DNA of 64,000 nt from Methanococcus voltae. Lineage in GTDB: Archaea; AGJL01; Methanococci; Methanococcales; Methanococcaceae. A program made the translations under genes and the position numbers. Positions 58,484 to 64,000 of this stretch are shown piece after piece; positions within the stretch are counted from its first letter, which is position 1; each line of letters starts with the position of its first letter. The stretch is from assembly GCF_024807655.1 (NCBI RefSeq), contig NZ_JANUCR010000003.1, forward strand, positions 186,001-250,000. The letters run 5' to 3'. The notes beneath the pieces are model-generated. The model saw only the letters and a program-made list of their open reading frames with translations. It was not told the origin of the DNA and ran no database searches.

Positions 58484-60181
58484 ATGATTTTAGGAATTAA
58501 TGACGGGCATAATTCGAGCATTTCATTGTTTAATGATGGAAAAACTAAGAATAATCGAATAGAATATGCCATAAGCGAAGAAAGGATTACCCGAATAAAA
58601 AATATTCGAGGATTTCCCAAAAATTCAATAAATGCAATATTAAACTATTATGAAACTGAAATAACTGATAAAAAAAATAATTTTGATTTAATAACCGTCG
58701 GGGGCAAATTTAGAAAAAATAACCGGTTAAACAAATTAAAAGAATTTTCGGACAATCAAAACGCTCCATTATTATATTTTGACCATCATTTATGCCATAC
58801 TTCATTATATAAACTAAATTATGACTTTAAAAAAGGAAAAGAATATATGGTTATTACACTTGACGGTGCGGGCGATGGTTTATCTTCTACCGTGTCAATT
58901 GCAAAAAATAACAAAATAGATACGATTGCTCAAAGTGATAATATCAACTCCATAGGGGATATTTACGCTTCTTTTACTGAATTATTGGGTTTTAAACCTA
59001 TGGAAGATGAAGGTAAAGTAATGGGTTTAGCAGGCTATCAAATGGATTCCGAACATAACGAAACGTATGAAAAAATTCTTTCAAACGTTGAAAATAAGAT
59101 TATTGGATACAATACTAAAACTAAGACTTTTAAAAATTATTTGGGCGTAATAGGTAATCAATCAACCAAAGAATTAGAAAAATTGTTTAAACTGCAAGGC
59201 ATTTGCAATTTTAAAAATATGGATTTGAATAATAAAGTAATTATTTCAAAGATTATTCAAAGAAAATTGGAAGAAACTGTTAAATTAATGGTTGAAAACT
59301 TCGTAAAAGAGACGGGTATTAGTGATATCGTGCTTTCAGGCGGTGTTGCTCAAAATGTTAAGCTAAATATGGAAATAAGCGATATGGATTGTGTAAATTC
59401 TGTATATGTGCCCCCTTTTCCATCTGATGAAGGTTTGAGTATTGGTTCTTGCATATTAGCATCTTCAATTCATAATAAATCGGATATTGGACTTCAAAAT
59501 ACCTATTTGGGTAATGATATTGAAAATTCTAAAATTGATAATAACAATATTTATGAAAATAATATTAATAATATTAATAATAATAATAATATTAGTATTA
59601 ATAATCTATCTAAATTCAAAATTACAAATTTAGAAGAAAATGAAATACCTGATGTTATTGCTAATTTATTAATGAATAATAAAATAATTTGCGTTTGTAG
59701 GGGTCGTATGGAATTTGGACCTCGTGCTTTAGGGAATAGGAGCATTATAGCGTTGCCAACCCGTGAAAATGCTCAAAAAATTAATCGATTACTTAATAGG
59801 TATGAACATATGCCTTATGCACCAACCATATTATGGGAATACGCCTCGGAATATGTAAAAAACCCATTTTATAGCCCACATATGGCGTTTTTGTTTAAAA
59901 CCAAGGATAATTATGATAATAAATCGAATATAAATGGCGTTATACATCAAGATGGTACTACAAGACCTCAAATGTTAAAAAAAGAATATAATACAACGTA
60001 TTACGAAATTATTCGGTCATTAGGAGATAATTTTAGTTCAAATTCTCAATCTTGTTATTCAGTGCTAAATACAAGTTTTAACCTACACGGCGAACCTATT
60101 GTTTGCAGTTTAGACGATGCAGTTCACTCTTTTGTAGGCGATGCTTTACTATTAGGTAATTTATTAATTGAAAAATTGTAA
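58484..60181 (+). CDS. NodU/CmcH-family carbamoyltransferase
   Basis: The 565-residue protein has the carbamoyltransferase fold: N-terminal IGINDGHNSSISLF and DHHLCHTSLYKLN (metal-binding His residues), ITLDGAGDGLSSTVSIA, VLSGGVAQNVKLN, and a C-terminal domain with CRGRMEFGPRALGNRSI, as in TobZ/NodU. These enzymes use carbamoyl phosphate to carbamoylate a hydroxyl on sugars or antibiotics, so it may modify a surface glycan or a cofactor; the acceptor is unknown. A long Asn/Ile low-complexity insertion lies near residues 345-382 (NNNIYENNINNINNNNN). It is unlike HypF in domain content. Confidence 0.85.
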   Translation: MILGINDGHNSSISLFNDGKTKNNRIEYAISEERITRIKNIRGFPKNSINAILNYYETEITDKKNNFDLITVGGKFRKNNRLNKLKEFSDNQNAPLLYFDHHLCHTSLYKLNYDFKKGKEYMVITLDGAGDGLSSTVSIAKNNKIDTIAQSDNINSIGDIYASFTELLGFKPMEDEGKVMGLAGYQMDSEHNETYEKILSNVENKIIGYNTKTKTFKNYLGVIGNQSTKELEKLFKLQGICNFKNMDLNNKVIISKIIQRKLEETVKLMVENFVKETGISDIVLSGGVAQNVKLNMEISDMDCVNSVYVPPFPSDEGLSIGSCILASSIHNKSDIGLQNTYLGNDIENSKIDNNNIYENNINNINNNNNISINNLSKFKITNLEENEIPDVIANLLMNNKIICVCRGRMEFGPRALGNRSIIALPTRENAQKINRLLNRYEHMPYAPTILWEYASEYVKNPFYSPHMAFLFKTKDNYDNKSNINGVIHQDGTTRPQMLKKEYNTTYYEIIRSLGDNFSSNSQSCYSVLNTSFNLHGEPIVCSLDDAVHSFVGDALLLGNLLIEKL

Positions 60182-62114: not shown

Positions 62115-63356
62115 ATGTCCAAATTAATATCTGTCGAAGAATACGCCATATATATTTATAATATAGAAATTACAGATGATAAACCCAATAAAAACTGTAA
62201 TTTATTAAAATATAAGTTATCGGAGTATAAAAACAGTGATACAAAAATAATCAAGTTTCGACCTACTAATTACGATATGGACAACGAAATATGGAAATTA
62301 TTTGACAAATTGTACGATATAATAGATAATGAAGAAACAATTTACTTAAAACTGTCAAATAAGGATAATTTAATTCCAATATTGGTTATTACAATAATTA
62401 ATTATTTAAAAGTTGTAAAAAATATAAAAATTGGATGTATTAGTTATGAAGACAGCAAATCAAATTTAAAACCAGTTTTTGATATTACAAGCCTTGATAT
62501 AATACTTTCTTGGACAAAAGCGATTGATAAGTTTGTTCATAATGGGGATTCCAAAGAAATACACGAATTAGCTGAAAAAAGAGGCAATATGATATCTAAA
62601 ATATCTCACGGCGAAAATAAGTATGGTTCTTATTTGCGTAGCTTTGGCAATAATATTGAAAATTTTACGGAACATATTCAAAGTTCACGAGGTTATGAGA
62701 TTGATACATTTCAATATGATAAATTAAAATACTATATCGAAGAGGTTAAACTTGGGAGCCCCCTGCCTCCTATGAAACCACTATTAGATATGATATTGGA
62801 TAAAATAGAAGATTTTAGCACTGAAAACTTGTATAATGGACTAAATGCGGTTAAATGGTGTATAGATAACAATTTAACACAGCAAGGTTATACATTATTG
62901 CGAGAAAACATTATAAATATTATTATTTATCAAATTGTGTATCATTTGGACATTGAAAATTTTACAATTGAAGATTTGAAAAATTCAAATATCCGGGAAG
63001 CTATTGAAGATGCTTTGATATATAAGTTTATAATGGAGCATAATTTAGAAAATAATAGGGATACAGAAGTGTATACTTTTATTAAATATGTTAATGATGG
63101 TGAAAATAATATTAAAAACGATATTAAAAATAATATTGTTTATAAATTAGATGTTAAAGAAATTTCAAAATCGATTGATTCAAAAATTTGTAATATTTAT
63201 AAAAGTGTTTCAGATTTGCGAAATGATATAAATCACGCTGGATATAAAATAAATCATATACAAAATCCGCAAAAATTTAAGGATAATTTAGAAAGACATT
63301 ATATTCAGCTACTTGACTACATATACAATACAAATAATACTAAACGGAATAAATAG
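62115..63356 (+). CDS. CARF-HEPN protein, Csx1/TM1812 (DxTHG) family, degenerate CARF motif
   Basis: Residues 71-150 (NEETIYLKLSNKDNLIPILVITIINYLKVVKNIKIGCISYEDSKSNLKPVFDITSLDIILSWTKAIDKFVHNGD) match the Csx1/TM1812 CARF pattern: beta strand, DxTHG-like loop, long helix, GIYYGA-like strand, ending with AVDaF..Gd. Here the DxTHG loop is replaced by KLSNKD. The C-terminus has a HEPN RNase motif R-x4-H at R369/H374 (LRNDINHAG). In CRISPR type III systems such proteins are cyclic-oligoadenylate-activated RNases. The first Rossmann strand normally at the N-terminus is not evident. No cas genes or array are in the window. A UPF0114 gene follows nine bases after the stop. Confidence 0.72.
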   Translation: MSKLISVEEYAIYIYNIEITDDKPNKNCNLLKYKLSEYKNSDTKIIKFRPTNYDMDNEIWKLFDKLYDIIDNEETIYLKLSNKDNLIPILVITIINYLKVVKNIKIGCISYEDSKSNLKPVFDITSLDIILSWTKAIDKFVHNGDSKEIHELAEKRGNMISKISHGENKYGSYLRSFGNNIENFTEHIQSSRGYEIDTFQYDKLKYYIEEVKLGSPLPPMKPLLDMILDKIEDFSTENLYNGLNAVKWCIDNNLTQQGYTLLRENIINIIIYQIVYHLDIENFTIEDLKNSNIREAIEDALIYKFIMEHNLENNRDTEVYTFIKYVNDGENNIKNDIKNNIVYKLDVKEISKSIDSKICNIYKSVSDLRNDINHAGYKINHIQNPQKFKDNLERHYIQLLDYIYNTNNTKRNK

Positions 63357-63365
63357 GGGGATTTT

Positions 63366-64000
63366 ATGGTTAGATTGTTTAGAAGTACGATGAAAGACAA
63401 AAATTTAAGAGAAGAATATCTTAAGGGTAATAAATATCTTGATGAAAAAATTGGGGAAGAATCAGAAACTAAAACAAGTGATAATACTACAAAAGAAACA
63501 AATAATACCGTAAAAGAATTATTCACTCATTTGGTAGAAGAAGATGAGCACGATAAAAAAATGAGGGAAAGATTAGGAATTAAAAAACCTGCTGAACAGA
63601 GCTATATTGAGCGAAACTTTGAAGCTGCCCTTTGGAATTCTCGTTATATTGTAATTTTATCGGTAATTTTTGGGATAATAAGCGCAATATCTTTATTCTT
63701 GGCAGGTTCTTATGAAGTAATTCATACCGTGATAGAAATAACATCTGATAAAATTATTACACTTGAAGAACTACATAATGGATTATTAATGGGTATAATT
63801 GGCTCAATTGACCTTTATTTAATAGGATTAGTATTGTTAATCTTTAGTTTTGGTATTTATGAACTTTTTGTTTCTAAAATAGATATCGCTTGGGAAGATG
63901 GAAAGGCTAAAAACATTTTGGAAGTCTTCAGTTTAGAGGAGTTAAAAGCTAAAATCTTAAAAGTTATTATTATGGTGTTAATAGTAAGCTTATTCCAAAA
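63366..64000 (+). CDS. UPF0114 (YqhA-like) membrane protein, cut by window end
   Basis: GGGGGATT and the ATG at 63366 come nine bases after the CARF-HEPN stop, so the two are surely co-transcribed. The first ~85 residues are a hydrophilic extension (LFRSTMKDKNLREEYLKGNKYLDE and following) that YqhA proteins do not usually have. Then follow helices and the family signature: ALWNSRYIVILSVIFGIISAISLFLAGS, IGSIDLYLIGLVLLIFSFGIYELFVSKID, and HSLEELKAK-like EVFSLEELKAKILKVIIMVLIV. The function of UPF0114 is not established. The gene continues past 64000. Confidence 0.85.
   Translation, partial: MVRLFRSTMKDKNLREEYLKGNKYLDEKIGEESETKTSDNTTKETNNTVKELFTHLVEEDEHDKKMRERLGIKKPAEQSYIERNFEAALWNSRYIVILSVIFGIISAISLFLAGSYEVIHTVIEITSDKIITLEELHNGLLMGIIGSIDLYLIGLVLLIFSFGIYELFVSKIDIAWEDGKAKNILEVFSLEELKAKILKVIIMVLIVSLFQ

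Follow-up and report, generated by a model that had tools for sequence, protein, structure and literature searches.

A Csx1-derived CARF-HEPN protein without ligand motifs and its UPF0114 membrane partner in three Methanococcus genomes

Introduction

What could a protein built like a type III CRISPR ancillary RNase do when it is encoded next to a membrane protein and away from any CRISPR locus? This question is raised by two adjacent genes in Methanococcus voltae, located at the end of the stretch of 64,000 nucleotides analysed here (the window; positions 186001-250000 of contig C3) in a genome of 1.86 Mb on 18 contigs (G000). The first gene encodes a protein with a CARF region and a HEPN RNase motif, and the second a membrane protein of the UPF0114 family. 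A sequence-only reading of the window had suggested that the two could form a stand-alone, two-component module of defence or stress response, and had implied that the module senses cyclic oligoadenylate.

The locus and its surroundings

Both open reading frames are on one strand, the first at 62115-63356 (413 amino acids) and the second from 63366 onward, and these coordinates bear out the nine-base spacing that had been noticed earlier. The second frame is cut at the window end; its stop lies at window-equivalent position 64097, about 100 bp further, giving 243 amino acids in all. The features are as follows.

62115-63356, plus strand: CARF-HEPN protein, Csx1-derived, 413 amino acids, with a degenerate CARF sensor and an intact HEPN RNase motif (PADLOC E 7.8e-61; TIGR02221 below cut-off; dN/dS 0.10-0.15)
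62115-62246, plus strand: shortened CARF N-terminus, residues 1-44, with about 37 residues gone relative to Csx1 relatives (alignments)
62337-62372, plus strand: residues 75-86, TIYLKLSNKDNL, at the strand-4 position that holds the ligand signature D-[IVF]-[ST]-H-x-[FYL]-R in relatives (0/3 here, 10/10 controls)
63219-63242, plus strand: HEPN catalytic motif RNDINHAG with R369 and H374 (R-N-x3-H in 13/13 proteins)
63357-63365, no strand: nine-base gap with a GGGGA Shine-Dalgarno-like motif (similar in three genomes)
63366-64000, plus strand: UPF0114 membrane protein with an N-terminal extension, continuing to window-equivalent 64097 (PF03350 E 4.7e-31; hydrophobic segments from about residue 87)
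63366-63599, plus strand: lineage-specific N-terminal extension, residues 1-78 (only in three pair-bearing genomes; dN/dS below)

Contig C3 ends 6.2 kb beyond the window, and this tail contains an endonuclease III/DUF123 gene, an AIR-carboxylase-like gene, two open reading frames of secreted or membrane type and a MacB/FtsX permease. It had been considered that cas genes might lie just past the window; this is excluded as far as the contig end, since none is present in the 6.2 kb. Neither cas1 nor cas10 was found on C3, and the Cas1 and Cas10 genes of M. voltae are located on contigs C6 and C8. Neither the window nor the remainder of C3 beyond it showed a CRISPR-like array in a simple scan, and the locus contains no candidate for a ligand-making gene.

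Distribution and independence from CRISPR

Among 36 Methanococci genomes, close relatives of the CARF-HEPN protein (81-83% identity) were found only in two others of the same genus, G019 and G020, and the pair is absent from the rest of those sampled. All three genomes share the gene order aspartokinase, carbamoyltransferase, leuA family, CARF-HEPN, UPF0114 and nth. The intergenic gap is eight bases in G019 and G020 compared to nine in M. voltae, with a comparable ribosome-binding-like motif in each. Co-occurrence across Methanococcales, which the sequence-only reading had proposed as a check, thus takes the form of identical synteny in three Methanococcus genomes and in none of the others sampled. 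The three most likely constitute one subclade, and the joint presence of the pair and the extension should therefore be counted as one evolutionary event, not three. Beyond Methanococci, the distribution was sampled by a genome-wide scan for close relatives, and viral contigs scanned with three queries yielded no relatives. The carbamoyltransferase (window 58484-60181), of the NodU/HypF type, separates the aspartokinase from the leuA-family gene in each genome that has the pair; in the four Methanococcus genomes without the pair, it was not seen beside the matching leuA-family gene.

The stand-alone status and tight pairing that had been suggested are substantiated by this one locus in three species, especially by G019, a genome 98% complete that possesses the pair without Cas1 or Cas10. 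It follows that the gene is independent of a type III system in G019. Cas10 genes are present in the other two genomes, two in M. voltae and one in G020.

Identity of the CARF-HEPN protein

The best PADLOC matches of the first protein are CARF2-CARF_HEPN (E 7.8e-61) and Csx1/Csm6 (E 2.9e-54), followed by several further Csx1 models. These models align to residues 19-403, indicating that the CARF plus HEPN architecture is present, and together with R369 and H374 in place they uphold the assignment made from the sequence. The HEPN R-x4-6-H motif is found within RNDINHAG, and all 13 proteins compared carry R-N-x3-H. NCBIfam TIGR02221 matches residues 29-154 with 55.8 bits, which is under its curated cut-off of 76.25, and Pfam gives no match for this protein. 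The CARF-like region had been placed at residues 71-150; its CARF nature stands, while its extent has to be revised to a remnant of approximately residues 1-154.

Structure prediction was another check proposed earlier. A weak AlphaFold2 model from a two-sequence input (pLDDT 46) showed four strands in beta-alpha alternation ahead of the helical part, compared to six strands in the Rossmann-like core of the CARF superfamily, and its best fold matches were to Marinitoga Csx1-Crn2, with probabilities of 0.99-1.00 and low TM-scores. A second weak model, from a one-sequence input (pLDDT 64), had no reliable fold match, and a PDB sequence search with either protein of the pair as query returned nothing useful. 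In the tree, the stem leading to the three stand-alone proteins is long (1.28 substitutions per site, support 100), which is consistent with a change of role; other long branches exist in the same tree.

Loss of the CARF ligand motifs

The strand-1 and strand-4 sites of CARF domains make up the ligand pocket (PMC4012209). Both sites were compared in a panel of 13 proteins, consisting of the three stand-alone proteins and ten CRISPR-linked or csx2-annotated relatives, seven of which are csx2-annotated plasmid genes, mostly from type III loci. At strand 4, every one of the ten relatives has the signature D-x-[ST]-H-x-x-R and none of the three stand-alone proteins does, and the form [DN]x[ST]xxx[RK] described for CARF domains (PMC4012209) gives the same counts; DITHSFR of the type III-linked relatives is replaced by KLSNKD(N/Y). 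At strand 1, about 37 residues have been deleted from each of the stand-alone proteins, among them the G-[TA]-G loop behind the polar residue and the helix next to it, whereas nearly all of the ten relatives retain this G-rich loop. What is left at these sites is one serine at the end of strand 1 and another in the strand-4 region, S6 and S81. The nearest full-length Methanococcales relatives, in G014 and G035, are 31-38% identical and adjoin type III genes; these two proteins and that of Fonticella, which is also beside type III genes, start with [LI]SF[LV]G[TA]G and carry DITHSFR at strand 4. Judged from the alignments, none of the three stand-alone proteins retains the motifs of the cyclic-oligoadenylate pocket, and binding of cyclic oligoadenylate has probably been lost with them, contrary to the sensing implied by the sequence-only reading. 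Because the three-dimensional model is poor (pLDDT 46), this loss is read from sequence.

In the csx2 gene on a Deinococcus radiophilus plasmid (L105), the strand-1 motif is missing and DITHGLR is kept; a transposase-type gene overlaps its N-terminus as annotated, and an insertion has probably shortened this csx2 gene.

The degenerate CARF region is far from being free to drift. In comparisons between the three pair-bearing genomes by the Nei-Gojobori method, the CARF-HEPN gene as a whole has a dN/dS of 0.10-0.15 and HEPN one of 0.12-0.15; the value falls to 0.01-0.07 for CARF residues 45-125, which are among the most constrained parts of the protein, and rises to a lax 0.27-0.57 for residues 1-44. 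The strong purifying selection on the CARF remnant indicates a selected role instead of decay.

This constraint would also be expected if the divergent CARF senses a different nucleotide ligand, for example a linear RNA end, with UPF0114 as a second effector or a co-transcribed neighbour. Such a reading, the chief rival to the one preferred below, gains from the view that CARF families without the strand-4 K/R bind other ligands (PMC4012209), and from RtcR, which binds 5' tRNA fragments with a cyclic phosphate (PMC7790460). RtcR resembles the present protein in that its CARF serves outside CRISPR and lacks the basic residue usually found in the pocket; it differs in being a sigma-54 activator that binds tRNA fragments and not a nuclease. 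We regard a different ligand as unlikely here, considering that an entire stretch with the strand-1 loop is gone, beyond the basic residue alone, and that no ligand-making candidate accompanies the genes.

The UPF0114 partner and its extension

The second protein belongs to UPF0114 (PF03350, E 4.7e-31; 107.9 bits against a gathering score of 23.1), and its hydrophobic segments start at about residue 87. The family and the soluble N-terminal extension had both been recognised correctly; the length, previously given as about 85 residues, is about 78 when measured against relatives. A profile of the 78-residue extension matched only the three pair-bearing genomes, and the extension is absent from 11 other Methanococcales UPF0114 proteins. 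Four other Methanococcus genomes have no CARF-HEPN gene, and three of them encode UPF0114 elsewhere, after uvrABC-type genes and without the extension; eight further Methanococcales UPF0114 genes likewise have no extension and have different neighbours. Within the extension, residues 49-78 are strongly conserved (dN/dS 0.07-0.13) and residues 1-48 are lax (0.47-0.71), compared to 0.05 for the membrane part. The extension is predicted to be on the cytosolic side.

These data bear on two further readings of the pair. One is that the genes are co-transcribed neighbours unrelated in function, in agreement with the occurrence of UPF0114 next to other genes elsewhere, after uvrABC and near other housekeeping genes. 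It appears rather improbable, given that the N-terminal extension occurs only with the CARF-HEPN gene and that its residues 49-78 are highly constrained. The other is a toxin-antitoxin-like pair, in which a HEPN toxin would be neutralised by sequestration at the membrane through the extended UPF0114. The adjacent genes, the gap of eight or nine bases, the HEPN toxin domain and the lineage-specific soluble extension of the partner would all suit such a pair. Nevertheless, the toxin gene would come first, and a fixed chromosomal site with both genes strongly constrained contrasts with patchy mobility; the phage collection gave no matches, and plasmids gave only csx2-type or unlabelled homologues of <30% identity. 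A toxin-antitoxin function is therefore considered improbable.

Possible signal sources

If the CARF-HEPN protein were an ordinary Csx1 serving, in trans, type III-B systems elsewhere in the genome, the Cas10 genes of M. voltae and G020 could supply its signal. This is very improbable, because G019 keeps the gene without Cas10, which makes a general in-trans source of cyclic oligoadenylate unlikely, and because the ligand motifs are lost. Moreover, the Cas10 loci inspected in M. voltae and G020 have a CorA-like neighbour with a GMN signature, the one in M. voltae being confirmed by profile, and CorA-type proteins are tied to SAM-AMP rather than to cyclic oligoadenylate (PMC10600005). In a search for SMODS domains, a CBASS-type cyclase with Cap15 was found only in M. 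voltae among the three pair genomes. The above-cut-off matches in the three look like CCA-adding enzymes, as confirmed for M. voltae and G019, and accordingly no shared CBASS signal source was found.

Several observations were made on these defence loci in their own right. On contig C6 of M. voltae (L051, 2586-18871, and L052) there are a gene set with cas8b, of type I-B, and a Cmr locus, of type III-B, which also encodes a large membrane protein resembling CorA; in appearance, this Cmr locus is a system of the SAM-AMP type. Another locus with Cas10 is found on C6 at a distance of about 24 kb. Near position 11155 of C6, the CBASS cyclase adjoins a Cap15-type effector with two transmembrane segments (L111, 438-1938). 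Small proteins of the PADLOC Mvol_0529 family are encoded within Cmr loci (L051, 9475-9882; L060, 7691-8050).

Finally, a decaying Csx1 remnant or an assembly error, to which the missing CARF segment might point, is barely credible in view of one architecture in three genomes, no stops and dN/dS of 0.10-0.15, the last of which refutes a pseudogene.

Proposed mechanism and comparison with known systems

The explanation that we tentatively favour is that a Csx1 RNase was exapted from type III CRISPR, freed from cyclic oligoadenylate, and is now probably under the control of UPF0114, which would hold or trigger it at the membrane. It is preferred because of the Csx1 kinship, with motif loss in 3/3 stand-alone proteins versus retention in 10/10 relatives; the purifying selection on the CARF remnant, the HEPN domain and the transmembrane part, with shared synteny in three genomes; the persistence of the pair in G019 without Cas1 and Cas10, with above-cut-off SMODS matches that are CCA-adding enzymes in the two genomes checked; and the nearest full Methanococcales relatives, which adjoin type III genes and keep the motifs. 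The partnership with UPF0114 is favoured because the N-terminal extension is found only together with the CARF-HEPN gene. While the anatomy of the pair can be read directly from the genomes, the mechanism below is what we infer from it.

A Csx1 gene would have become fixed between a leuA-family gene and nth in the ancestor of a single Methanococcus subclade, and its CARF domain has lost the strand-1 loop and the strand-4 basic signature of the cyclic-oligoadenylate pocket. The CARF scaffold and the HEPN R-x4-H site, on both of which selection is evident, would have been retained, the scaffold probably still as a dimer platform. The N-terminal extension of UPF0114 most likely binds to either the CARF remnant or the HEPN linker and could thereby keep the RNase at the membrane, where a change of membrane state may release or activate it. 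Perturbation of the membrane by a virus or by envelope stress would then lead to RNA cleavage and growth arrest, making the pair a two-protein analogue of membrane-tethered HEPN/Ire1-type RNases. The stronger claim, that the pocket was deleted and control moved to UPF0114 with a dedicated docking tail, so that a CRISPR RNase was captured by a membrane sensor, is possible but doubtful; if true, it would represent a new, two-component and nucleotide-free way of firing a Csx1 RNase. A new signal, possibly one that comes from the membrane, may thus have taken over the control of Csx1.

Stand-alone CARF-HEPN proteins are already known. What is new, as far as our searches reach and with a wider spread or an earlier listing possible, is that the ligand motifs are consistently lost while the RNase site is kept, and that the protein is invariably paired with a UPF0114 protein having a lineage-specific tail. 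The locus is a clean natural experiment on the survival of a type III CRISPR effector after CRISPR itself, its pocket gone, its RNase site kept and both genes under selection, and from it one would learn how ancillary nucleases of CRISPR are put to new uses. UPF0114 is a widespread membrane family that is seldom named in the literature searched, and never in a title or abstract, and the pair provides its first functional context.

Compared to Csx1/Csx2 (TIGR02221, PADLOC CARF2-CARF_HEPN), the ancillary RNase of type III CRISPR, the stand-alone protein shares CARF and HEPN over most of its length together with R-N-x3-H, and its top matches among profiles and in the fold library are of this type. 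It differs in lacking about 37 residues and the strand-1 and strand-4 ligand motifs, in scoring below the TIGR02221 cut-off, in lying outside any type III locus and in being paired with a membrane protein. The partner belongs with UPF0114 (PF03350) by its membrane domain, which far exceeds the gathering score, and is set apart by its 78-residue N-terminal extension, which the 11 other Methanococcales members do not have. Membrane-tethered HEPN RNases acting like Ire1 have been predicted, and CARF nucleases have also been found as stand-alone genes (PMC3710099). The likeness to these membrane-associated HEPN and Ire1-type RNases (PMC3710099, section 15) lies in the proposed membrane control of a HEPN RNase; they combine HEPN and transmembrane helices in one polypeptide, whereas here the two parts are encoded by two adjacent genes and the HEPN domain is of the Csx1 type.
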